DNA of 64,000 bases from an uncultured Fidelibacterota bacterium (GTDB lineage Bacteria > Fidelibacterota > UBA8477 > JABMPR01). The notes below the pieces were generated by a model. The model did no database searches. It worked only from the letters and a program-made list of their open reading frames with translations, and had not been told where the DNA came from. The stretch covers positions 1 to 64,000 of the forward strand of contig CALBFA010000073.1 in NCBI GenBank assembly GCA_937888365.1, given 5' to 3'. The translations under genes were made by a program, and so were the position numbers. How positions within the stretch are numbered: position 1 is the first letter of the stretch; the number at the start of each line of letters is the position of its first letter. This document shows positions 41,787-54,168 of this stretch, piece by piece.

Positions 41787-43142
41787 ATGGACAAAAATTA
41801 TGTAATCATTGGGGGAGATGCTGCAGGGATGAGTGCCGCTTCGAAAATCCGCCGCAGTAAACCTGAATCCAATATTATTGTTTTTGAAAAAGGTGAATAT
41901 ATCTCATTTGCAGCATGTGGCATCCCTTATTGGTTGGGTGGTGTAATCGACTCAGATTCAAAATTGCGTATTTTGACACCTGAAACCGCAAGAAGTAAAC
42001 GGAATATTGATGTTCGGAATTTCCACGAAGCTCTATCGATTGATACGGATAATCGCACGATAGTTGTTAAAAATATTAAAACCGGCGACATCATTAAGCA
42101 ACGTTATGATCAATTAATCATAGCAACAGGCGCACGCGCCATCATCCCGCCAATTCCCGGTGTTGAAACAACCGGAATTTTTCCATTACGATCATTGAGC
42201 CATGGACAACGCATCAATACCTATATCAATGAAAATCATGTCCGTCATGCCGTAATTGTAGGCGCTGGATATATTGGGTTAGAGATGGCAGAAGCCTTCG
42301 TTTCCAGAGGGATACAAGTTGAAATCATTGAAATGGCCCATCAAATTATGCCAAATTATGATGGCGATATGGTTGAAAAAGTTACATCGCATCTAAAAGA
42401 AAAAGGTGTGATTCTTCATCTTGAAAACCGAGTTACAGGTTTTGAGAAAAATGCTTCTACTATTTCAGTGTCTCTAAGTCAAGCCCCACACATACTTCAA
42501 GCGGAATTAGTGATTATGGCAACAGGAGTTGCACCAAATTCTGAAATTGCAGAATCTGCAGGCATAAAATGTGGTCCAAGCAAGGGAATCAAAATAAACG
42601 CAAAAATGCAGACAAGTGTTGATAGAGTTTGGGCGGCAGGTGATTGTGTTGAATATCATCATCTTGTACTTGGTGAGGCAGTCTATATTCCACTTGCTCC
42701 ATCTGCCAACAAGGGAGGTCGAATTGCGGGTGATAATGCGACAGGACAATCTTTTGAATTTCCTGGCATTTTGGGAACTTCCGTCGTAAAAGTATTTGAT
42801 TATACCATGGCATCAACGGGTCTAACGGAAAAGCTTGCACTCTCAAGTGGAAAATTCCCAAAAGCACGTTCCGTTGTTATCACAGAATCCAACAAAGCAA
42901 AATATTATCCAGGTGCGACGCCTGTGACGGTCAAACTTGTTATTGATGGGAAAAATAATCGCATCATAGGCGCTCAAATGTTTGGGAAAGCAGATGTCGC
43001 CAAACGCATTGACATCATTGCAGTCGCTATCACCGCTAAGATGACAGCCCACGATGTGGCCATGTTGGATTTGAGTTATGCACCACCTTTTGCGCCGGTT
43101 TATGACCCGATTCATATTGCTGCTGGTGTTGCAGACAAATGA
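41787..43142 (+). CDS. CoA-disulfide reductase-like FAD oxidoreductase
   Basis: The 451-residue flavoprotein of the single-cysteine group includes CoA-disulfide reductases, NADH oxidases and NADH-dependent persulfide reductases. The FAD motif is IIGGDAAGMSAASKIRR. The redox-active Cys44 lies in YISFAACGIPYWLGG. The NADH motif is VIVGAGYIGLEMAE, and the second FAD motif is VWAAGDCVEYHH. There is no C-terminal rhodanese domain, which persulfide reductases such as Npsr carry. It opens the plus-strand thiol gene series opposite the psr operon, so a CoA-persulfide or polysulfide role is plausible but unproved. Confidence 0.87.
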   Translation: MDKNYVIIGGDAAGMSAASKIRRSKPESNIIVFEKGEYISFAACGIPYWLGGVIDSDSKLRILTPETARSKRNIDVRNFHEALSIDTDNRTIVVKNIKTGDIIKQRYDQLIIATGARAIIPPIPGVETTGIFPLRSLSHGQRINTYINENHVRHAVIVGAGYIGLEMAEAFVSRGIQVEIIEMAHQIMPNYDGDMVEKVTSHLKEKGVILHLENRVTGFEKNASTISVSLSQAPHILQAELVIMATGVAPNSEIAESAGIKCGPSKGIKINAKMQTSVDRVWAAGDCVEYHHLVLGEAVYIPLAPSANKGGRIAGDNATGQSFEFPGILGTSVVKVFDYTMASTGLTEKLALSSGKFPKARSVVITESNKAKYYPGATPVTVKLVIDGKNNRIIGAQMFGKADVAKRIDIIAVAITAKMTAHDVAMLDLSYAPPFAPVYDPIHIAAGVADK

Positions 43143-43182
43143 TTTTACCCTGAGTCCAACCCTCTCATATTTTCTATAAAAT

Positions 43183-43226
43183 AGTTCTCAGTGCATTGAC
43201 TATTATAACGAGAACTTCGATATAAA
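43183..43226 (+). promoter_or_regulatory. Candidate promoter with flanking inverted repeat
   Basis: TTGACT (43196-43201) and GATATA (43219-43224) are spaced by 17 bases, as in a sigma-70-type promoter. Perfect 7-bp inverted arms AGTTCTC (43183-43189) and GAGAACT (43210-43216) bracket the -35 element and spacer, a position suited to a repressor or redox regulator. Initiation would fall near 43231, which favours ATG 43252 as the start of the following gene. Confidence 0.4.
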
Positions 43227-43251
43227 ACTAAAATTAGTGAGAGAAAAAAAG

Positions 43252-43506
43252 ATGATTACTAAAGGAATGTTTATTGAAGATTTGGTAGTTGATTATCCAC
43301 ATCTCATTGGGCCTTTAAAAGACGAGGGCATCGTATGCTTAGCGTGTGGGGAACCCATGTGGGGAACTTTGGAAGAGCAGGCAAAAGAAAAGGGTATTAA
43401 AAATATTGATAAAATTGTTGAGAAAATGAATCATTTGCTGGCAGAAGAAAATATTGATTTGTCTTTTAAAAATGACGTTCTAAGCGAAGATGATTTTTCG
43501 GATTAA
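43252..43506 (+). CDS. DUF1858 domain protein
   Basis: From ATG 43252 the protein has 84 residues; an in-frame GTG at 43237 lies too close to the predicted transcription start. The DUF1858 fold covers residues 1-65: KGMFIEDLVVDYPHLIGPLK followed by the paired cysteines Cys29 and Cys32 in GIVCLACGEPMWGTL. In other bacteria DUF1858 is found alone or fused to hybrid-cluster or sulfur-related proteins; its role is unknown. It is followed by an OsmC gene on the same strand. Confidence 0.8.
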   Translation: MITKGMFIEDLVVDYPHLIGPLKDEGIVCLACGEPMWGTLEEQAKEKGIKNIDKIVEKMNHLLAEENIDLSFKNDVLSEDDFSD

Positions 43507-43601
43507 AGCAATTTTGTAAACAATATTTTATAACATATTTAGGGCTTGAGCTTGTATTCCAGCCTATTATTTCGTAAGAACACGGACAGAATGGAGAAGT
43601 G

Positions 43602-44027
43602 ATGGCTGACATTATTATCAAACAATTAAAAGGCGCGACCTTTATAGCTAAAGGAGCTTCAAACCATTGGGTCGCAATGGATGGAACCGATAAAGTCGGT
43701 GGTTTTGATGCTGCGGCTCGACCACTAGAAATGGTTCTTTTTGGTTTAGGTGGTTGTACAGCTGTCGATGTAAAAACCATTCTTGAAAAAATGAAACTTA
43801 ATATAGAAAATATCGAGATTGAAATTGATTCAGAACGGGCTGATGAACATCCGAAAGTATTTACTAAAATAAAAATGGTTTATCATTTTTATGGCAAAAA
43901 TCTCGCTCTAAAAAAATTAGAAAAAGCTGTGAATTTATCCAAAGAAACATATTGCTCCGTAACAGCAATGTTAAAACATTCAGCTGAATTTGAAGTTTCT
44001 ATTGAAAATCACAATACAGCGGAATAA
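43602..44027 (+). CDS. OsmC family thiol peroxidase-like protein
   Basis: The 141-residue OsmC/Ohr-fold protein has both active-site cysteines, Cys52 in FGLGGCTAVDVKTIL and Cys118 in KETYCSVTAML. It corresponds to the short YhfA-like OsmC subgroup, which reduces organic peroxides or may handle persulfides, rather than Ohr itself. GGAG lies five bases before the ATG at 43602; an adjacent GTG one codon earlier is less likely. It stands in a run of cysteine-containing genes. Confidence 0.87.
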   Translation: MADIIIKQLKGATFIAKGASNHWVAMDGTDKVGGFDAAARPLEMVLFGLGGCTAVDVKTILEKMKLNIENIEIEIDSERADEHPKVFTKIKMVYHFYGKNLALKKLEKAVNLSKETYCSVTAMLKHSAEFEVSIENHNTAE

Positions 44028-44057
44028 ACAGGAAACAGTCTGGAGCTTGCATAAATA

Positions 44058-44282
44058 ATGATGAACTTTTATAAAGATAAAAAATTCTTAGGAGCCTTAT
44101 TCGTCGGTGCTATTGGTGGATATTTGTATTACTATTTTATAGGGTGTAAAAGTGGGTCATGTCCCATAACATCGAGTGCGACAATCTCAACACTCTATGG
44201 CGCTATGATAGGGGGGATCGCTTTTTTCCCTTCTAAAAAAAAGAAAAATAATCCTGAAATAGCTAAAACTTCGGAGCTCTAA
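44058..44282 (+). CDS. DUF6132-like small membrane protein
   Basis: The 74-residue protein has two membrane helices (about 9-27 and 42-58) joined by a loop with GCKSGSCPITSS, holding Cys30 and Cys35, and ends in a basic tail. The GCxxGSCPITS pattern matches the small family I know as DUF6132, of unknown function and often next to rhodanese, YedE or thioredoxin genes. Two adjacent ATGs (44058, 44061) are possible starts. The secreted-protein gene begins one base after the stop. Confidence 0.65.
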   Translation: MMNFYKDKKFLGALFVGAIGGYLYYYFIGCKSGSCPITSSATISTLYGAMIGGIAFFPSKKKKNNPEIAKTSEL

Positions 44283-44283
44283 A

Positions 44284-44991
44284 ATGAAATTAAGAATGAT
44301 TATAATTGGATTATTAACGATGATGTCATTGAGTTTTGCTCATATAAATTTTGAATTTACAGCTATTGACTCCATGGTAGAAACCGATACAACAGGACAA
44401 TGGGGGGTTATTATTTTACGCGGTGATGTACTTAATTTGACATCGTCTTCTATTCGCATTACCGCCATTAGGGAAACTCAACAAATCCCTGCAACCTGGA
44501 GTTGTAATTTTTGTTTTGGTTCAGCGTGTTTAGCACCATTTATTGATGAGTATTCTGATGATGTTGCTGGCGACAGCCTCGTTGATTTTACACTCGATAT
44601 TTATCCAAACGGCGAAATTGGAACAGGTATTTGGTTAATGACGATGATTGACTCTGTCTCAATGGAAACTGATTCGGCACTTTTTACATTAACTTATAAT
44701 CCAACTACCAGCATTGATGGCTCAAAACGCCCCATACAGATGTCATTTTCAGCCTACCCAAATCCTACAAACGACTTTATTTCACTCCAAATTCCCACCG
44801 AATACGCAGACGGTATTTCCACGATGAAGATTTACGATATTACTGGACGAAACGTCTTAGAAAAACAACATTCCATAAAAACAGGACAAAATGCGTATAT
44901 AGATGTTAGTTCACTATCGTCAGGTATGTACTTTGTCTCTGTTCAACAAGGTAATCTAATAACTCAAACAAAAATACAGGTGGTAAAATAA
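44284..44991 (+). CDS. Secreted T9SS-sorted protein with three clustered cysteines
   Basis: The 235-residue exported protein has a signal peptide (MIIIGLLTMMSLSFAH). An immunoglobulin-like beta domain holds Cys74, Cys77 and Cys82 in TWSCNFCFGSACLAPF. A C-terminal type IX sorting domain follows (FSAYPNPTNDFISLQIP, IYDITGRNV, SSGMYFVSVQQG). The domain with W-x-C-x2-C-x4-C recurs in FCB secreted proteins beside TlpA and Omp28 genes, to my recollection without assigned function. Its TAA overlaps the ATG of the TlpA gene by one base, implying a functional link. Confidence 0.75.
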   Translation: MKLRMIIIGLLTMMSLSFAHINFEFTAIDSMVETDTTGQWGVIILRGDVLNLTSSSIRITAIRETQQIPATWSCNFCFGSACLAPFIDEYSDDVAGDSLVDFTLDIYPNGEIGTGIWLMTMIDSVSMETDSALFTLTYNPTTSIDGSKRPIQMSFSAYPNPTNDFISLQIPTEYADGISTMKIYDITGRNVLEKQHSIKTGQNAYIDVSSLSSGMYFVSVQQGNLITQTKIQVVK

Positions 44992-45566
44992 TGAAAACAT
45001 TAAGACGCATCAGTATCATTTTATTAGCATTATTTATTCTAAATTTCGCAGGAGATAAAGTTTTTCCACATTCTAAGATAAAGACAATGAAGGGTGAGAC
45101 TATTTCTTCGGGGAAAATACTCAATCATAAATTGACATTGATTAATTTTTGGTCCACTTGGTGTGTACCCTGTAAAAAGGAAATGAAATACCTTCAGGAA
45201 CTTCATCAAAAATATGCTAAAGATGATTTCCAAGTCGTTGGTATTTCAATAGATGATTCAAAAACTGTTTCGCGCGTTCCATCTATTATAAAAAGCAAAA
45301 AATTAAGCTATCCAATTTTTTTAGATACGGATAAATCGCTTTATAGAAAATTTCATACTTCGTCCGTTCCATTTTCCGTACTCGTTGATCAAAATGGAAA
45401 TATTATTTGGGAGCATCAAGGCTATACGCCTGGAGATGAAAAATTGATGGAAAAACAAATTTTTGCGTTTTTAAATCAAAAGAACCACATAAAAGATTTG
45501 CCCAAAACAAAAACATTAAGAGAAAAACCACAAGACAAAGGTCGAATTCAAAAAGCAAACGGCTAA
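44991..45566 (+). CDS. TlpA-like thiol-disulfide oxidoreductase
   Basis: The 191-residue thioredoxin-fold protein has an N-terminal signal or anchor helix (residues 6-20). The active site is Cys58-Val-Pro-Cys61 in NFWSTWCVPCKKEM, with the cis-Pro segment TSSVPFSVLVD. It ends in a Lys-rich tail. TlpA/ResA proteins reduce or exchange disulfides outside the cytoplasm. Tight coupling to the secreted three-cysteine protein upstream suggests that protein, or the Omp28 lipoprotein downstream, as a partner. Confidence 0.9.
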   Translation: MKTLRRISIILLALFILNFAGDKVFPHSKIKTMKGETISSGKILNHKLTLINFWSTWCVPCKKEMKYLQELHQKYAKDDFQVVGISIDDSKTVSRVPSIIKSKKLSYPIFLDTDKSLYRKFHTSSVPFSVLVDQNGNIIWEHQGYTPGDEKLMEKQIFAFLNQKNHIKDLPKTKTLREKPQDKGRIQKANG

Positions 45567-45644
45567 CTTCATAGGTTTTGAAAGCGCAACCCCGTTTTTT
45601 TATTCAGAATATAGACGTTGAAATATTTGAAATATTGAGAATGA

Positions 45645-47372
45645 ATGAATTTTAAAATATCAAGACGTTTATTGTTCGTCTGGATACTATTCTTATCAGC
45701 GACACTAATCGCGCAATCCATTGAATATAGTTTAGGATTTCAATCAAGATTAGGTCGAGGTGACCAAATTGGAATTCCTTATGACTATTCTGAAAGCTAC
45801 TTAGATTTACAAGCATCTGCGAAGAATTGGACATTGATGACTCAGCTCGAGTGGAGTCAACCCCCTGAATATGGGCGTGAATTAATTGGCATTCATCGCT
45901 TTTCTGTCGAGCGGTTTAAGGGCTCAGCATTATTTCAGTTGGGGCATTTAGCGCATATTTTTGGGTCTGGAATGAGCTTGAATTTATATGAAGATCAAAA
46001 CATCAATCTTGACAATATGCCATTGGGTTTAAAACTATCTTTTAGAACAAAAAATGACGCATTGATTACAGCTTTGGTGGGACGTAAAGACAATTTTCAA
46101 TACTATGCGCCTGGGAGCAATAGTCGTGTTCCTGATGGAGATGTCTCATACGACATTGCAGGTATTGAACTTGAAAAGTCACTTTTTGATGGAGCGATTG
46201 GATTTCAACCTCGCTTGGTCTGGAGCAATTTTAAATCTGATATTCAGCACTTATCTCTCAATACGCCTGGGCAACTCATCCAAAATCAAATACGCCAGCA
46301 AATGATGACGTGGGATATGGGCGTTTCAAGCGGATTCTATGGATTGAACTGGGACATAAAAATGGATGCATCATACCAAATGAAACTGGCCGATGTTCCC
46401 TTTCTTAATCAAGAAATTCATTTTGATGCTCATGTCGCTTCAATCGTCAATACCTCATTGGATCAAAATTTTTCTGGAAAATCTGTATATTCTCGGTTCT
46501 CCTGGTACCCTGATTGGATGACAGCGAGTTTAGAATATAAATATTACGGATTGAATCAAACGTCTCCTAATGACCGTATTGATGTGTATCGCTTAGGTCT
46601 CCAACCCTTGCCTTTTCAAGTGGGTCCAACGGTCATTCGGCAACATGAATTAGCGCTCCTCGCATCCGTAACACATCCCGTTGATTATGCGGACGAAATG
46701 GGTTTTTATGGCGAAATTATTATCCCTATGCAAAATTTTATATTAAGTATGGATGCCACTATTGCATCATGGACAACAAATTGGTCCAACGAATTTTATC
46801 AAGACAGTCGTTATTTCCCTTCCTTACATTCAACGTATCAACCCTTTTGGGAACTCCATTCTGAATTTGATTACAGTGGCGATTCCTTCACATCAAAATC
46901 AGGCATTGCGCTGACGGAATCAGCATTAAACGGAATTGATGTCGCCGAGATTACGCGTCATTTTACACTTGTCCCAACTTATTTTTCCTGGCACTTCAAT
47001 GACACATACTCAATCGGTGGATTAATGGAGTATCAAAACTCTTCGGTTTTTTCATTGCCATTTGAAACTGATATTAGATCACATGGGCATGATTATGAGA
47101 GTTATCATTTTATTGCTTCTGTTGATATAATGTCCAAATATTCATTGGCTTATATTTCCGATTTTAGTTCGGATCCAGCGCTCTATCAAGGTGATCGAAC
47201 AGAAGGATTTCAATCGTGGAATAGTGTCGAAGTTTCTTCTCGCACCCTTGAAAATTTATCAATTAGGATGAGTTATGGCTCGGAAAAAGGAGGCGTTCGC
47301 TGCACAGGAGGTGTTTGCCGACTGATCAATCCTTTCGAAGGTTTTCGCATGATTATGGAGTATAGACTATGA
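45645..47372 (+). CDS. DUF6029-like outer-membrane barrel protein
   Basis: The 575-residue protein has a signal peptide (LLFVWILFLSATLIAQ) and an amphipathic beta-strand pattern throughout. Near residues 105-130 GSGMSLNLYEDQNINLDNMP matches what I recall of DUF6029 proteins. The C-terminus carries paired cysteines Cys553 and Cys558 in GGVRCTGGVCRLINPF and ends in a barrel-like aromatic-Leu strand. Function is unknown. It overlaps the Omp28 gene by ATGA and follows tlpA by about 80 bases. Confidence 0.6.
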   Translation: MNFKISRRLLFVWILFLSATLIAQSIEYSLGFQSRLGRGDQIGIPYDYSESYLDLQASAKNWTLMTQLEWSQPPEYGRELIGIHRFSVERFKGSALFQLGHLAHIFGSGMSLNLYEDQNINLDNMPLGLKLSFRTKNDALITALVGRKDNFQYYAPGSNSRVPDGDVSYDIAGIELEKSLFDGAIGFQPRLVWSNFKSDIQHLSLNTPGQLIQNQIRQQMMTWDMGVSSGFYGLNWDIKMDASYQMKLADVPFLNQEIHFDAHVASIVNTSLDQNFSGKSVYSRFSWYPDWMTASLEYKYYGLNQTSPNDRIDVYRLGLQPLPFQVGPTVIRQHELALLASVTHPVDYADEMGFYGEIIIPMQNFILSMDATIASWTTNWSNEFYQDSRYFPSLHSTYQPFWELHSEFDYSGDSFTSKSGIALTESALNGIDVAEITRHFTLVPTYFSWHFNDTYSIGGLMEYQNSSVFSLPFETDIRSHGHDYESYHFIASVDIMSKYSLAYISDFSSDPALYQGDRTEGFQSWNSVEVSSRTLENLSIRMSYGSEKGGVRCTGGVCRLINPFEGFRMIMEYRL

Positions 47373-48583
47373 AATATTTTCTAATGATTTTTAGTCTTAT
47401 TTTATTGATGAGCTGTGACGTTTGGGAAAATTGGTCATTACCAAATTCAACAATTAGCTCCCATATCATCATTCAAAAGAATAAAGAGACCATAATTACA
47501 CTTCAAGAGGTTTTCAAATTAGAGAATCAAGTTCTACAAATAAATAATATTGATGCCTCTGACACTTCGCTCTTAGCTATTACTGAAGGGCAGAATGATA
47601 CCCTTATTTTATGGGGTAAAGATATTGGTAGTGCCACTATTTCAGCGACATTTGAATCAGAGTATTATTATGATGCACTTCTCAATATTGAGATAACAGA
47701 TGGCTATCCCGTCGATACGAAAATGGGTGAAACGTCTATCATCAACTTGAGCAATATTTTTAATATTGATAGCACTGGATTTGATTCAATTGCTGTTTTG
47801 AGTCCTTCAAGTGACGTTGCAACTATAAATCTATTATCAAATGGACGCATTGAAATATATGGCGTATGGCCCGGAGAACTTCAAAGTCAAATTGAATTAT
47901 ATTTTGCGGGAAATTTGGTTGAAATTGGCTTACTCGCCATCAACGTTACCAACCCATTACGTGCACTGGTTGAGTTATTTACGAATTCAGGGTGCATTAA
48001 TTGTCCTGTCGCAAATGAATTCCTTGATGATAAATTAGTAATGCATGATGAATACATGTCTATTATACGTTACCATGCTTATTGGCCTGAATTTGGTGAT
48101 ATTATGTATCATTATAATACACCCGTCAATCAAGCTCGCTTAGACTTCTATATGGTTCCTCTAACACCGTATCTTGTAGTGAATGGAAATATTATTGGTG
48201 AATGGAACGAAGCGGATTGGGAACAGTCATTGCAAGAATCTTATGAAATAGAATCTCCTTTGTATCTCAATCTAGGAGCAAATATAATAAGTGATTCCTT
48301 AATTGCAGTTCTTGATGTTATTGAAGTTGAAAATATTACGGAAGTCCTTACGCTAAGCTTCGTTTTGATTGAAGATTCTATTGAGTATGCCGGAACAAAT
48401 GGTGAAATATTGCATCAACAAGTGATGCGAAAAAAAATTGATTATGCGTTAGCAGACATCGAAAACGGATCTTGGCGTGCCAGTTTCTTTTTAGATGATG
48501 TCTTAGTTCGTGAGCATTTATCGGTAGTGGCCTATGTACAGAACAACACAAAGGTCGTTTATCAATCCACGGTTATTAGATAA
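47369..48583 (+). CDS. Omp28-related lipoprotein with CxxC
   Basis: The 404-residue protein has a lipoprotein signal (MKYFLMIFSLILLMSC, lipid Cys16). Two beta-rich segments precede a thioredoxin-like Omp28 region with Cys209-Ile-Asn-Cys212 in VELFTNSGCINCPVANEFLD, followed by YHAYWPEFGD. Omp28 proteins are surface or outer-membrane lipoproteins of Bacteroidota; the CxxC suggests thiol exchange. It is translationally coupled to the DUF6029 gene and ends the plus-strand series at a terminator. Confidence 0.8.
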   Translation: MKYFLMIFSLILLMSCDVWENWSLPNSTISSHIIIQKNKETIITLQEVFKLENQVLQINNIDASDTSLLAITEGQNDTLILWGKDIGSATISATFESEYYYDALLNIEITDGYPVDTKMGETSIINLSNIFNIDSTGFDSIAVLSPSSDVATINLLSNGRIEIYGVWPGELQSQIELYFAGNLVEIGLLAINVTNPLRALVELFTNSGCINCPVANEFLDDKLVMHDEYMSIIRYHAYWPEFGDIMYHYNTPVNQARLDFYMVPLTPYLVVNGNIIGEWNEADWEQSLQESYEIESPLYLNLGANIISDSLIAVLDVIEVENITEVLTLSFVLIEDSIEYAGTNGEILHQQVMRKKIDYALADIENGSWRASFFLDDVLVREHLSVVAYVQNNTKVVYQSTVIR

Positions 48584-48667: not shown

Positions 48668-49291
48668 TTAACACCCACCAGCGGGTGCTTTCTTTGCCTT
48701 TTTACGTTTGATTACGGGTTTGTTTGTGTTCGTTGCAGGGGCCGTTGCTTGGATTTCTGCACCACCGCCACCGAAATATTCACTGGCTCCTTTTTTGAAA
48801 TCGTATTTCGCGATTTCTTCATCAGAACTATAAATGGACGGTGCCTTTGGGCTAAGAATCGATTCAAACCAATAATTTAAGCCACCTTGAAGAACATAAT
48901 TATTTTCATAGCCTAATTGACGTAAAACCATCCAAGCTTGATGAGAATACATGGTTCCATTAGAATAAAATACATTCATTTTGACACCCTGATCTAAAAT
49001 GTCAACGTAGTCGTCATTTAGAATATCAGCGATAGGAATATTAAATGCGTTGGTCAAATGGTACGTAGCGAATTCATCGGGAGAGCGAACATCAATAATT
49101 TGAATGGATGGATCTTTCGTGATAATCCAATGGGCCAAATCTTCAGGCGAAATAATTTCGGATCCGTCTCTAACCTCAGTTATCATATCAGAAGCCGTGA
49201 GTTTATACCGTTTGGTCGTATTTTCGGGTACCATAGCAATGACGACACCCAACAATAAAGTAACAGCTAATGTCAATATACGTGCATTCAT
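48668..49291 (-). CDS. Rhodanese-fold protein lacking the catalytic Cys, with C-terminal Gly-Gly-Cys
   Basis: The ATG at 49291 has GAGGAG ahead of it, giving 207 residues; a longer upstream frame runs through the YedE gene. An N-terminal membrane helix (5-21) leads to one rhodanese domain (PSIQIIDVRSPDEFATYHLTNAFNIPIADI). The active loop reads VFYSNGTMYSHQAW: Ser110 stands where the sulfur-accepting Cys should be, and the usual Arg is Tyr. The tail is flexible, basic and Ala/Pro-rich and ends APAGGC. It cannot act as a classical sulfurtransferase; the terminal Cys could carry persulfide instead. It is the last gene of the psr operon. Confidence 0.82.
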   Translation of the reverse strand: MNARILTLAVTLLLGVVIAMVPENTTKRYKLTASDMITEVRDGSEIISPEDLAHWIITKDPSIQIIDVRSPDEFATYHLTNAFNIPIADILNDDYVDILDQGVKMNVFYSNGTMYSHQAWMVLRQLGYENNYVLQGGLNYWFESILSPKAPSIYSSDEEIAKYDFKKGASEYFGGGGAEIQATAPATNTNKPVIKRKKAKKAPAGGC

Positions 49292-49292
49292 T

Positions 49293-49883
49293 TTAATACT
49301 CCTCTCTAGTGAATTTCTTCTCGGCCCATTCGCCAATCCAAAACATGATTCCAGCAGCAATAATGACGAGTAAAGCCATCACACCACCCGAAACACCCAG
49401 TATTTCGCTGATTTTGGGATTCCCTAAATTACCAGAATTATAAAATTCTTTCCAAAGAGGATAACCTTCTCCGAAAACAAAGATGCCAATAACGACGCCT
49501 GCGAGAAATATCATTGCATCAATTTTACCGATGGCAGCAGCGCAAACACTGGTGCCAGGACAGAAACCGCCAATAATAAAGCCAGCCCCCATAATGACGC
49601 CGCCACCTATTGCAGACCAAATAAAAGTTGGGTTAACATAGACGAGGTTTAAATCAATCCATCCGAAAAGACTAAAATATAGAAGCCCAAGCATGGCGGT
49701 GACAGCTGCGGTGAAGAAAACTTTTAAAACGACCGTATCATATCCATAAAATAATCCGGCCAATTTTCGGCTTGACGAAAATCCAGCTTGTTCTAATGCA
49801 AAACCAAATCCGATACCAATAATAAACGCAATGAGCATATTCCAATCTTGCCCAATGATTTCTTGTGGAACTAAAGGACCCAT
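49293..49883 (-). CDS. YeeE/YedE family sulfur transporter half
   Basis: The 196-residue polytopic protein has about five membrane helices and the signature GFALEQAGFSSSRKLAGLFYG plus GGFCPGTSVCAAAIGKID. Those cysteines correspond to ones that relay thiosulfate in TsuA. It is the larger half of what is a single protein in TsuA; the other half is the adjacent gene. Together they probably import thiosulfate or another sulfur species for the polysulfide reductase or CoA-persulfide pool. It abuts the rhodanese gene start. Confidence 0.87.
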   Translation of the reverse strand: MGPLVPQEIIGQDWNMLIAFIIGIGFGFALEQAGFSSSRKLAGLFYGYDTVVLKVFFTAAVTAMLGLLYFSLFGWIDLNLVYVNPTFIWSAIGGGVIMGAGFIIGGFCPGTSVCAAAIGKIDAMIFLAGVVIGIFVFGEGYPLWKEFYNSGNLGNPKISEILGVSGGVMALLVIIAAGIMFWIGEWAEKKFTREEY

Positions 49884-49892
49884 GATTGCCTC

Positions 49893-50402
49893 CTAAATCC
49901 AATTTTTTCTAAAAGTGTAAGCTAAGCCAAAAGCTGTTCCAAAAATGGCAGCCATGGTTATAAAGCCGCCAAGAGATAGTACCGCCATTCCTGTAAGTGC
50001 GGAACCACTCGTACAGCCTCGACCCAACTGTGAACCAAAACCAAAAAGAACACCGCCAATTAAAGCCATGGTAAGTCTCTTATTCGCTGTTATTTTTGGA
50101 AAATGTTCAACTTTGATTTTAAGACGACCTGAAAGTGCACCCGAGATAAAACCGCCAACTAAAACGCCCAAAATTTCAAAAGAAAGCCAAGAGTTTAGAG
50201 GGTTTTTACCATCGGCGACGTACTTGCCAAAATAGCCGTTTGTTTCAACATGTTCTGCAGCTACAATATGCTCAGAAGCTACTAAAAGATTTTTAAACGC
50301 TCCACTTGCTCCTAGACCGCGTCCGGAAAAGAAAAAAGCCATGAGCAAAACCAAGCCAAGCATCAAGCCAGCTAGGTAGGGATTCATATACTTTGTTTTC
50401 AT
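49893..50402 (-). CDS. YeeE/YedE family sulfur transporter half
   Basis: The 169-residue membrane protein has about four to five helices and the YedE signature FGSQLGRGCTSGSALTGMAVLS, whose Cys matches a substrate-relay cysteine of TsuA. A large extracytoplasmic loop lies around residues 35-75. It lies nine bases upstream of the second half and 35 bases after psrC. Split YedE pairs are common in anaerobes next to rhodanese and TusA genes; no tusA is visible here. Confidence 0.87.
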   Translation of the reverse strand: MKTKYMNPYLAGLMLGLVLLMAFFFSGRGLGASGAFKNLLVASEHIVAAEHVETNGYFGKYVADGKNPLNSWLSFEILGVLVGGFISGALSGRLKIKVEHFPKITANKRLTMALIGGVLFGFGSQLGRGCTSGSALTGMAVLSLGGFITMAAIFGTAFGLAYTFRKNWI

Positions 50403-50437
50403 CAGTTATTCCTTTATTTAATTAATATTGGCATTTA

Positions 50438-51379
50438 TCAATACAACCAACGACTTGCTTGGCCCGCTGAAACAACGATGAAGCGCAACATGAGATTTCC
50501 CATAACGATTAAAACGACAGGGACAATGGCTGGTATAAATTTTTTCCGCAATTCCATTAATTCGAGTCCACCAGGTAGAATGAGTCCCATTGCAACGACA
50601 AGAACCCAAAAGGGGACCGTATAACTTCCGCCGAGGAACATATGAGCGGCTTCAATATGAACAGCAGTACTTGCCAATAATCCCATAAATAAGTGGACGA
50701 TTAAAAAAAATTCGGTGACGATTAAAAATAAGTCAATCTTGATAAAATGTTTTTTCTCTTCATGAGATTTGGCGAAATAAGCCGTTAAAGCGGCGGCAGC
50801 AGACAATCCTGAAATTAAAAATAAAGGGCCGAGGATTGATGTGTTCCAAAAGGGTCGTGCATTAAACGCCGAGAGCAAAATCCCCGTGTACATTCCCAAT
50901 GTAGTGGCTAAAGCTATCAAACCGTAAGCCATGCTTTTTTCGTATTTTTTTAAGACATCAATTAAATCATAAATGAGTTGATATTTTAAGTCGAGTTTTG
51001 GGAACATATCCGGTAGCCATCGCAATATCCAAGCTATGGAAAGCGGTGTTATAAATAAAAGTGTCCAAGCGCCCCAAGACATCGGAGACTCCCATCGGAT
51101 ATTGGTGTAGAGTTGCCAGAAATAGAGTTTATGAGACAAATCAAACAACAATGCCAGTAAGCCAATACCAATAAGTACTGGAACCGCTAAAGGCATCCAC
51201 ATGACGGAAACAGGATATTTTTTAGCTTTCCCTTGTATCGAAAGCAAGGCTGCAAAAAAAAGTAAACCTGCAGAAATTCCGCCTAAAAAAAGGTAAAGTG
51301 GAATTTCCCAACCCCACGCGTGTAAGACGGGATCAATCCCTGGATTCATCCGCCCGCTGGTAATAATTTCTTCAATCAT
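50438..51379 (-). CDS. psrC: Polysulfide/thiosulfate reductase membrane subunit (NrfD/PsrC family)
   Basis: The 313-residue protein has eight or nine membrane helices and the NrfD/PsrC start WGWEIPLYLFLGGISAGLLFFAALL. It anchors the PsrAB dimer and exchanges electrons with menaquinone. Helix segments SPMSWGAWTLLFITPLSIAW and LHAWGWEIPLY are typical of the family. It follows psrB by 12 bases. An alternative within the family is tetrathionate or DMSO reductase anchor, but the PsrA-like partner favours polysulfide or thiosulfate. Confidence 0.88.
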   Translation of the reverse strand: MIEEIITSGRMNPGIDPVLHAWGWEIPLYLFLGGISAGLLFFAALLSIQGKAKKYPVSVMWMPLAVPVLIGIGLLALLFDLSHKLYFWQLYTNIRWESPMSWGAWTLLFITPLSIAWILRWLPDMFPKLDLKYQLIYDLIDVLKKYEKSMAYGLIALATTLGMYTGILLSAFNARPFWNTSILGPLFLISGLSAAAALTAYFAKSHEEKKHFIKIDLFLIVTEFFLIVHLFMGLLASTAVHIEAAHMFLGGSYTVPFWVLVVAMGLILPGGLELMELRKKFIPAIVPVVLIVMGNLMLRFIVVSAGQASRWLY

Positions 51380-51391
51380 AGCAGATTCCCT

Positions 51392-51925
51392 TTATGTTAA
51401 GTAATAAACTTTGGGTTTTGTGCCGGCTTCTGGAATGAGGGTTTTCCATTTCCGTCGTGCGATTGTTTTACTAATTTCGCTATTGGGGTCGTCAATATCA
51501 CCAAAAATCATGGCATGCGTTGGGCAAACGGACACGCAGGATGGCTTTTGCCCTAGCTCCACCCGATGGAAACAGAATGTGCATTTATCAACGTATCCTT
51601 CGGGATGTACATATCGTGCGTCATAGGGACATGACGTAATACAAGCTTTGCACCCGATACATTCATCTTCATCGACAAGAACAATTCCGCCTTCGACTTT
51701 ATGGCTCGCTTCCGTTGGGCAGGTTCGAACGCAAGGCGCATCTTCGCAATGATTGCACCGTTCGGATCGAATTTCCATGGCGAGTTGAGGATAGGTTCCC
51801 GTCGTAACTTCCACGATCCAATCACGGCAATATCCAATTGGGACATTGTTTTCAGTTTGGCAGGCGACAACACAGTCATTACATCCGACACATCTTATGG
51901 TATCAATGGCCATTGCGTATCTCAT
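51392..51925 (-). CDS. psrB: Polysulfide reductase iron-sulfur subunit
   Basis: The 177-residue electron-transfer protein has four cysteine clusters for four [4Fe-4S] centres: CVGCNDCVVAC, CNHCEDAPCVRTCP, CIGCKACITSCPYDAR and CTFCFHRVELGQKPSCVSVCP. It passes electrons between PsrC and the catalytic PsrA. It overlaps psrA by ATGA and has no export signal of its own, so it should be carried across the membrane with PsrA. Confidence 0.92.
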   Translation of the reverse strand: MRYAMAIDTIRCVGCNDCVVACQTENNVPIGYCRDWIVEVTTGTYPQLAMEIRSERCNHCEDAPCVRTCPTEASHKVEGGIVLVDEDECIGCKACITSCPYDARYVHPEGYVDKCTFCFHRVELGQKPSCVSVCPTHAMIFGDIDDPNSEISKTIARRKWKTLIPEAGTKPKVYYLT

Positions 51926-54168
51926 GATGCCACCTCCTCTTTGCCTTCAAATCGAAAGGTTACGAAATTGCCTCGCATTCCTGTGCCGCCCATTATTGGG
52001 TCAATATGTACGCGTGTAATGAGGTCTGAATCGCTGGCTCCTTTTCCGAACGCTCGTTTCAGCCGTTTATCCGTATGTCCAAATCCATGCACCATATAAA
52101 CGGAATCAAAACGAATCCTTTCCGTAACGCGCACTTTGATTGGTGTGTCAGAGACAACGCCATCTTGATTCTCAAGCCATATTTTTTGGTCGTTTTTCAA
52201 TCCCCATTCTTTCGCAACTTTTGGATTTACCCAGACAGAGTTTTCGTCCATTAAATCATTCAAGTTCGGATTGTTGGATGTGCGACTAAAGGTATGCATG
52301 GGAGCGCGACCGTAAATGAGTCGATAAAATCCAGATTGAGGTTCTTCATGTGCTGTGTATTGCGGCATTGGATCAAAGCCTTCTTCTTCAAGAGAAGTCG
52401 AATATAGCTCAATTTTACCAGTATTTGTATTGAACTCAAAATCCTCCAAGCCCGTCATGGGATACATGTCGTCTTCTTCGCGTACAAATTTTTTGACGCC
52501 GATTTGCTTCATTTCTTCGAGGGACGAACCGACTTGTTTTAGTTGCCAATCCAATAGTTCGGACACATCCTCATAAGGGAAGTAATCTTTAAGTCCTAAT
52601 CGATTGGCCAATTGTTTCGCCATCCACCATGCTGGTTTTGTATCAAATTTGGGTTCAGCAGCAGGCATTCTCAATGCGATATTGGGTTCTCGATTTTGAG
52701 AAACGCGAATCATGTCGTAGCGCTCTAAATACGTACATTCAGGTAAAACAACATCAGCGTAGCCCGTAATTTCCATCGGCATGGTATCAACAACAACCAT
52801 TAGCTCTAAAGCATTGATAGCAGCCAAAGTCTTTTCACGCTCTGGAAGCGTATGAATAAGATTCGTCCCATTGACAATCCATCCTTTTAGAGATGCGGGT
52901 TTTTCTAGTGTTGGAGTTGACGCATCAACGAATCCATTGGCAAGAGACAAGCCAGCCAAGTTATACTTTCCGTTTAAGTCATCACGCCAGGTGCGCTTTA
53001 ATTTGGGATATTTAGGGTGTGGATATTTGGGTAATTTTGCTTTTACAGGATAATAAAACCCCCCTCGTTGTCCCCATGAACCGAGGAGCGCATTTAAAAT
53101 AGCAACAGCTCTAAGTCGTTGAGTGTCATCACCATACCATGTAACATGACGTCCTGGATGAACAATGACAGCCGGTGCTGCATTGGCCATTTCTTTTGCT
53201 GTTTTACGAATAACATCAGGCTTTATAGTTGTGATGCCATAAGCCCATTCGGGTGTCATAGTTTTAACATGCTCTTTAAGTTGATCAAAACCGTAAGCAT
53301 ATTTTTCGACATATTTCTTGTTATAAAGTTCATCATAAATAAGTACGTGAATCCACGATAGGAGCAACGCAATATCGGTGGCAGGTTTAATAGGCAACCA
53401 ATGTTTTGATTTACCAGCCACAATTGAAAAACGAGGATCAACCGTAATGATTGTTGCACCTTTTCCATTGGCTTCGGACAATTCTTGTACTTGACCATTA
53501 TGCATATTTTCGCCTAAATGCGAGCCTATAAGAACAAGACATTTTGTATCGCGAATGTCAGTGCGCTCCGGTGAACTGATGCCTTCACCGTAAGTTGCAA
53601 AAAATGCGACTTCGCGAGGTCCGCGACATTGTGCATACGAAGGTGCGGTAATGCTATCTGATCCATAGGATTTCATGAGGTGACCTAAAAAATCGCCACC
53701 ACTGCCATGTGAAAAAAGCGCCATTGACTCTGAACCGTATTCGGTGCGAATATGATTCATTTTATTGCCAATGAAATCAAAGGCCTCATCCCAGGTTGCT
53801 TGTTTGTATTTCTGAATGCCATTTTCAGTGACACGAAGGAGTGGCGTTTTGAGACGATCGTCGTCATAATACATACCGACACCTCCAGTGCCTCGCGGAC
53901 AAAAACGACCATTTGAATGGGGATCATCATCATTGCCTGTAATTTTCCAAATATCACCGTCGGCATTTGTATGGACCCAACCAGCGCATTTCCAAAAACA
54001 GATTTCGCAATAGGTTGGCGTTCGTTTTGAGTAAAGTCCGGGTAATTTATCAGGTGCTAAAATTGCACCTTTTAATGAATCAAAAATAGGGTTCGCGATG
54101 GCTAAACCGCCCATTCCCATTCCCGCGATTCGAATAAATTCCCGCCTTGTTAATTGTTTTTCGCTCAT
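51922..54168 (-). CDS. psrA: Molybdopterin polysulfide/thiosulfate reductase catalytic subunit
   Basis: From the ATG at 54168 (748 residues) the protein starts with a Tat signal, MSEKQLTRREFIRIAGMGMG. It has the [4Fe-4S] binding CEICFWKCAGW and RFCPRGTGG, then the bis-MGD domains. The likely Mo-ligand Cys lies in SYAQCRGPREVAF. PsrA/PhsA enzymes reduce polysulfide or thiosulfate to sulfide in the periplasm. An upstream in-frame extension would run through merR, whereas ATGA coupling to merR and the GGAAAGG site fix this start. Arsenate or tetrathionate reductase of the same family cannot be fully excluded. Confidence 0.9.
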   Translation of the reverse strand: MSEKQLTRREFIRIAGMGMGGLAIANPIFDSLKGAILAPDKLPGLYSKRTPTYCEICFWKCAGWVHTNADGDIWKITGNDDDPHSNGRFCPRGTGGVGMYYDDDRLKTPLLRVTENGIQKYKQATWDEAFDFIGNKMNHIRTEYGSESMALFSHGSGGDFLGHLMKSYGSDSITAPSYAQCRGPREVAFFATYGEGISSPERTDIRDTKCLVLIGSHLGENMHNGQVQELSEANGKGATIITVDPRFSIVAGKSKHWLPIKPATDIALLLSWIHVLIYDELYNKKYVEKYAYGFDQLKEHVKTMTPEWAYGITTIKPDVIRKTAKEMANAAPAVIVHPGRHVTWYGDDTQRLRAVAILNALLGSWGQRGGFYYPVKAKLPKYPHPKYPKLKRTWRDDLNGKYNLAGLSLANGFVDASTPTLEKPASLKGWIVNGTNLIHTLPEREKTLAAINALELMVVVDTMPMEITGYADVVLPECTYLERYDMIRVSQNREPNIALRMPAAEPKFDTKPAWWMAKQLANRLGLKDYFPYEDVSELLDWQLKQVGSSLEEMKQIGVKKFVREEDDMYPMTGLEDFEFNTNTGKIELYSTSLEEEGFDPMPQYTAHEEPQSGFYRLIYGRAPMHTFSRTSNNPNLNDLMDENSVWVNPKVAKEWGLKNDQKIWLENQDGVVSDTPIKVRVTERIRFDSVYMVHGFGHTDKRLKRAFGKGASDSDLITRVHIDPIMGGTGMRGNFVTFRFEGKEEVAS

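Follow-up and report, generated by a model that had tools for sequence, protein, structure and literature searches.

Do the cysteine pairs of eight consecutive genes belong to one thiol relay and, if so, between which ends would it run? The genes lie at 41787-48583 of the window (the whole stretch of 64,000 nucleotides analysed here), which corresponds to contig C73 in a genome of 2.5 Mb whose closest named relatives are Candidatus Neomarinimicrobiota. The initial annotation had proposed that all eight take part in a thiol or persulfide relay from the cytoplasmic CoA pool to the cell surface, working together with a convergent psr/YedE operon.

Conserved cysteines in eight adjacent genes

An ORF check found the eight genes in place, all on the + strand, and every cysteine number given for their products was correct. 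The first four encode a CoA-disulfide-reductase-like flavoprotein (CoADR, 41787..43142, with Cys44), a small DUF1858/HCP-associated redox-disulfide-like protein (43252..43506, ATG at 43252, Cys29/Cys32), an OsmC-family protein (43602..44027, ATG at 43602, Cys52/Cys118) and the small membrane protein DUF6132 (44058..44282, Cys30/Cys35 in a C-x4-C). They are followed by a T9SS-exported protein (44284..44991), in which an Ig-like, PorA-NTD-like domain precedes a type A sorting tail and which carries Cys77 (44512-44514) and Cys82 (44527-44529) as well as Cys74; a periplasmic TlpA-type thiol-disulfide oxidoreductase (44991..45566) with the motif WCVPC (Cys58, 45162-45164; Cys61, 45171-45173); DUF6029, a predicted outer-membrane beta-barrel (45645..47372) with the motif GGVRC-TGGV-CR (Cys553, 47301-47303; Cys558, 47316-47318); and an Omp28/DUF1223-like thioredoxin-fold lipoprotein (47369..48583) with a lipobox cysteine, Cys16, and a CINC motif (Cys209, 47993-47995; Cys212, 48002-48004). 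Four adjacent pairs had been described as overlapping or nearly touching. This holds for three of them (DUF6132 and the T9SS protein, 1-nt gap; the T9SS protein and TlpA, 1-nt overlap; DUF6029 and the Omp28-like gene, 4-nt overlap), and the count reaches four only if the 30 nt between OsmC and DUF6132 are admitted.

In a profile scan of the window, OsmC, DUF6132, the T9SS tail, TlpA/redoxin and DUF6029 (PF19494, 63 bits for a gathering score of 27) were all above the Pfam cut-offs. TlpA matched PF08534 with 82 bits and has a CxxC within a thioredoxin fold, which places it in the TlpA/ResA type. CoADR stayed under the NCBIfam equivalog cut-offs (TIGR03385, 479 vs 579 bits; NF007123, 442 vs 458 bits), and the name DUF1858 stands for a sub-threshold TIGR03980 match only (29 vs 45 bits). 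Regarding the last gene, the Omp28 lipoprotein profiles PF11551 and NF033782 were below cut-off (18.6 vs 34.9 and 26.9 vs 150 bits), so that the protein is called Omp28-like only; its thioredoxin-fold part groups with Omp28 selenoproteins, with E-values down to 1e-27.

Cysteine alone is common in the window, with at least one in 49 of the 60 ORFs and at least two in 36. Close pairs (CX2-5C) were found in six of the eight genes vs 15 of the 60 ORFs, an enrichment that is mildly unlikely by chance (rough hypergeometric P ~0.002, uncorrected for the choice of region). The strong evidence is conservation, and it is because their cysteines are conserved in relatives that the cluster stands above chance. 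In alignments of relatives, Cys44 of CoADR was kept in 18/18 sequences, the DUF1858 pair in 11/11, the OsmC pair in 18/18, the DUF6132 pair in 10/10, the TlpA CxxC in 35/36, the DUF6029 pair in 32/33, and both the CxxC and the lipobox of the Omp28-like protein in 21/21. In the T9SS protein, Cys77 (20/22) and Cys82 (19/22) are conserved. The initial annotation had staked its proposal on such conservation, which was borne out for all the pairs it named and failed for Cys74 of the T9SS protein, kept in just 2/22.

The eight-gene block is restricted to one order

The arrangement CoADR-DUF1858-OsmC-(TM rhodanese)-DUF6132-T9SS protein-TlpA-DUF6029-Omp28 is kept with few losses in 19 loci, the window included, from the window's family and a sister family. 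The window differs from its relatives in this taxonomic order by having no TM rhodanese and by its flanks. Because gene order is kept despite differing flanks, the block behaves as a unit. Most relatives in the order, with L037, L040, L044 and L045 among their loci, encode a one-TM rhodanese between OsmC and DUF6132 and a DUF2231-like membrane protein after Omp28; the window has neither. In the sister genus (L044, L045, L046 and L058) CoADR is preceded by a glutaredoxin-like gene, a small Cys protein, an RNA polymerase sigma-like factor and GroES.

Among the loci mapped with long flanks, none outside the order has CoADR, DUF1858, OsmC or DUF6132 beside DUF6029. The eight genes do not go back to a single ancient unit: these first four are lineage-specific neighbours found with the cluster in this order alone, and TlpA, DUF6029 and a partner persist without them in dozens of genera.

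Within the order, psr and YedE occur in almost every genome tested, and they were absent from the five genomes tested from other lineages. In five genomes with both the block and psr/YedE on one contig (G001, G002, G003, G006 and G010 for YedE, the first four of these for psrA), the two lie ~20-25 kb apart, psr/YedE being downstream and convergent; beta-oxidation genes lie between them in sister genomes, where this stretch was read. Direct adjacency was seen only in the window (49296-54168, - strand). The convergent operon of the window also contains a rhodanese (48668-49291, - strand) that, with VFYSNGTMYS at the catalytic-Cys site, looks like one without the usual catalytic cysteine; it ends in ...GGC.

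A persulfide or thiol relay made of all eight genes, fed by the CoA pool of the cytoplasm and ending at the surface, with psr/YedE working alongside, would account for the conservation of the block in the whole order and for the convergent psr/YedE genes downstream. It is hard to reconcile with a core that does without the first four genes elsewhere, with the absence of psr/YedE from the tested genomes outside the order and with the poor conservation of Cys74, and we give it hardly any credence. The neighbourhood survey upholds the block within the order and not beyond it; the tie to psr/YedE amounts to synteny at the regional level within a single order and does not characterise the core, and the proposed CoA or persulfide source comes down to the presence of CoADR in that order, the linked candidate electron source being DsbD (see below) and not CoA chemistry. 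In this order, CoADR, OsmC, the rhodanese and DUF6132 probably add an upstream role in thiol/sulfane-sulfur chemistry or peroxide stress.

TlpA and DUF6029 form an old core across the phylum

We found DUF6029 in 138 of 245 genomes, representing 61 of the 84 genera of the phylum Neomarinimicrobiota. Among the 80 distinct loci, 77 had enough flank, and in 76 of these TlpA precedes DUF6029 by at most 400 nt on the same strand; in the single exception it lies downstream. The C-x4-C of DUF6029 (motif GGxxCxxGxC) is among the 12 invariant columns of 35 sequences that go down to 18% identity to the one in the window, and 76 of 78 loci have it; the remaining two sequences are truncated or have a broken frame. 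One KSB1 and one Hatepunaea locus also have the TlpA-DUF6029 pair. The old core is this pair plus surface thioredoxin-fold proteins. In the one paper found that mentions DUF6029, it is taken for a possible polysaccharide porin, and we found none joining TlpA, thiol-disulfide chemistry and T9SS.

Surface partners and selenocysteine

Of the 73 loci whose flanks were long enough, 57 encode a secreted thioredoxin-fold protein next to TlpA-DUF6029. In one family, additional loci carry an upstream, T9SS-tailed TlpA-like gene that had escaped the profile; ~11-16 of the 73 have no thioredoxin-fold partner within reach. The adjacent partners, which bear T9SS tails or are lipoprotein-like, belong to two families, Omp28-like and TlpA-like. 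T9SS, as judged by SprA, is present in 223 of the 245 genomes, including that of the window.

In both families we found an in-frame TGA at the first cysteine of the CxxC (36 of 80 loci), and the listed loci had no second TGA within the matched domain. A SECIS-like hairpin with a 3-base loop (GGA, GUU or GGC) lies ~21-25 nt after the TGA. Hairpins of at least 5 bp were found in 34 of 40 Sec genes, vs 3 of 25 Cys Omp28 genes and 23% of shuffles, and 37 of 38 had a G in the first two loop bases. The fold energy of the 52 nt after the TGA separated Sec and Cys genes poorly (mean z -0.67 vs -0.15), whereas the hairpin at a fixed position did separate them. SelB was above cut-off in 166 of the 245 genomes, again including that of the window. 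The partner genes of relatives therefore have the marks of bacterial selenoproteins, namely a TGA at the Cys site, a SECIS hairpin and SelB.

The Sec partners beside DUF6029 match NF045500 (Omp28_seleno), one of them with 517 bits and others under the cut-off, and relatives at the same locus combine UxxC with this profile. The window protein, in turn, has CINC and no NF045500 match among the matches listed, so it is not an NF045500 selenoprotein but the Cys counterpart of the Omp28 selenoproteins. Within 6 kb of DUF6029 we found 24 of the 43 NF045500 matches above cut-off and eight of the ten just below it; the other 19 of the 43 lie elsewhere. A 2026 review lists the NF045500-type family as 'hypothetical protein GOS_C' (PMC13188914); the family's 2008 description gives a Trx-like fold and UxxC and assigns no function (PMC2398784). 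Our search for literature on selenoproteins and Omp28 found none, and the location of the Omp28 selenoprotein beside TlpA and DUF6029 appears to be unreported.

The window's own genome also encodes, on contig C36 (L144:1699-4317, - strand), an 873-aa Omp28-like protein that ends in a T9SS tail and has an in-frame TGA at the first Cys (GEYFTNAN-U-PSC), and a Cys form (TCGPC) on contig C104 (L145). In L129, three Omp28-like Sec genes surround one TlpA-DUF6029 pair, which suggests that surface selenoproteins have been duplicated more than once around the core.

The predicted DUF6029 barrel

The AlphaFold2 model of the window DUF6029 (pLDDT 90, pTM 0.84) predicts an outer-membrane barrel of about 26 strands, as counted from its strand list. 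Cys553 and Cys558 fall in a hairpin of what would be the last outer loop, the long loops being outside if the C-terminal strand ends in the periplasm. Among the Foldseek matches listed, MtrB (6r2q_B) had the highest TM score (0.49).

By E-value, the best Foldseek matches were metal/ligand transporter barrels, with the copper transporter OprC first (E 3e-10, TM 0.46, 8% identity). This would suit a channel whose cargo, be it a metal, a chalcogen or a sulfur compound, is captured outside by Cys or Sec pairs, released by reduction and passed inwards, and the CoADR, OsmC, rhodanese and DUF6132 neighbours of this order suggest sulfur or peroxide chemistry. Still, the likeness is one of barrel shape only, family scans gave no TonB plug domain in DUF6029, and no constant transporter partner was seen, since neighbours vary between families while TlpA stays. 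We consider such thiol-bound cargo uptake quite improbable.

A candidate reductive relay across the outer membrane

DsbD is the standard inner-membrane thiol reductant. A full DsbD, with N-terminal, membrane and thioredoxin domains, immediately precedes TlpA-DUF6029 in three loci, all from one family; one of these loci is cut by the contig end. The genome of the window encodes a DsbD on contig C103, and a match to the DsbD membrane domain was found in 37 of 40 relatives.

The initial proposal of a thiol relay to the surface, once stripped of its CoA/persulfide source, its eight-gene extent and its tie to psr/YedE, offers the best explanation for the core of TlpA, DUF6029 and surface proteins. 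DsbD would bring reducing equivalents out of the cytoplasm and hand them to periplasmic TlpA (CVPC), from which they would reach the barrel pair Cys553/Cys558 and, in turn, thioredoxin-fold proteins attached to the outer surface, either as lipoproteins or through T9SS tails (CxxC here, UxxC in many relatives), which might reduce external substrates or surface proteins. Such a relay fits because the core has a dedicated TlpA, an invariant barrel pair, Sec in two partner families and, in one family, DsbD. We judge the chances to be about even that TlpA, DUF6029, the Omp28-like lipoprotein and the T9SS protein form a reductive thiol relay across the outer membrane, and it is likely that DUF6029 and the marine selenoprotein GOS_C share a role.

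Against this relay, the C-x4-C of DUF6029 could be a structural disulfide; besides, some loci have no partner within reach, 19 of 43 Omp28 selenoproteins are away from DUF6029, and DsbD adjacency is limited to one family. One could also argue for folding or quality control, in which TlpA and the surface thioredoxin-fold proteins would make, break or shuffle the disulfides of DUF6029 and of exported Cys proteins, DUF6029 itself being a client or a porin. TlpA-family proteins are thiol-disulfide oxidoreductases, the barrel has just one conserved cysteine pair and the DsbD-TlpA gene order suits a reductive folding path. However, one dedicated TlpA per barrel in 76 of 77 loci seems heavy for folding, and the repeated presence of Sec in two partner families argues for catalytic turnover at the surface. 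We therefore think the folding role unlikely.

If the barrel cysteines face outside, as the topology predicts, periplasmic TlpA would need a path through the lumen to reach them, which also weighs against the relay. More tentatively, and somewhat short of an even chance, DUF6029 may be the first outer-membrane thiol conduit, taking electrons from TlpA to its extracellular C-x4-C and on to surface thioredoxins or selenothioredoxins, which would amount to selenium-dependent redox chemistry outside the cell. By analogy, TlpA would possibly be docked in the DUF6029 lumen as MtrA is in MtrB. The MtrCAB porin-cytochrome conduit, a 26-strand barrel passing electrons across the outer membrane, resembles this arrangement in how it works only; it uses cytochromes and not thiols, and no sequence relation to DUF6029 was shown.

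We know of no route that takes thiol reducing power past the outer membrane of Gram-negative cells, and of no electron source at the outer surface except cytochrome conduits. DsbD-type relays, to our knowledge, end in the periplasm. The reductive relays of DsbD, ScsB and CcdA with TlpA-, ResA- or DsbC-type partners likewise lead from the cytoplasm to extracytoplasmic thioredoxin-fold proteins, but the present case adds a barrel with a conserved Cys pair and partners anchored at the surface. The Sec partners beside DUF6029 match GOS_C/NF045500 in family, Trx-like fold and UxxC; in contrast, the window copy is a Cys form with a lipobox, and we did not find the operon with TlpA and DUF6029 described in the literature. 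A further parallel is HBP35 of Porphyromonas gingivalis, a T9SS-exported surface protein with thioredoxin activity that was suggested to maintain surface redox (PMC2907840). It is likened to the partners in the window by description, not sequence, and has no known outer-membrane electron source.

The gene set, kept together by marine bacteria of one large uncultured phylum, looks like a sulfur (and often selenium) wire that would take reducing power from the cell interior across the outer membrane to surface proteins. If true, it would be a new outer-membrane electron path, would give DUF6029 a function and would explain GOS_C, an abundant marine selenoprotein that has had none since 2008; one small gene set makes these three unknowns testable.

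The T9SS-exported protein

The N-domain of this candidate surface partner is predicted to be an Ig-like sandwich. The closest solved fold was the PorA N-terminal domain (6kjk; TM 0.72, E 1.4e-5, 13% identity), and both proteins have T9SS tails. Unlike the protein studied here, with its conserved cysteines, PorA is described in a main text containing neither 'disulfide' nor 'cysteine residue' (PMC7712824). An nDsbD identity, prompted by the motif C-x4-C-x-PP, was rejected: Foldseek gave the PorA domain and generic Ig folds, with no nDsbD among the matches listed. Finally, at L061:7584-8048 the same domain sits on a lipoprotein-like N-terminus and lacks a T9SS tail. This would be another way of anchoring it, consistent with a place at the surface.
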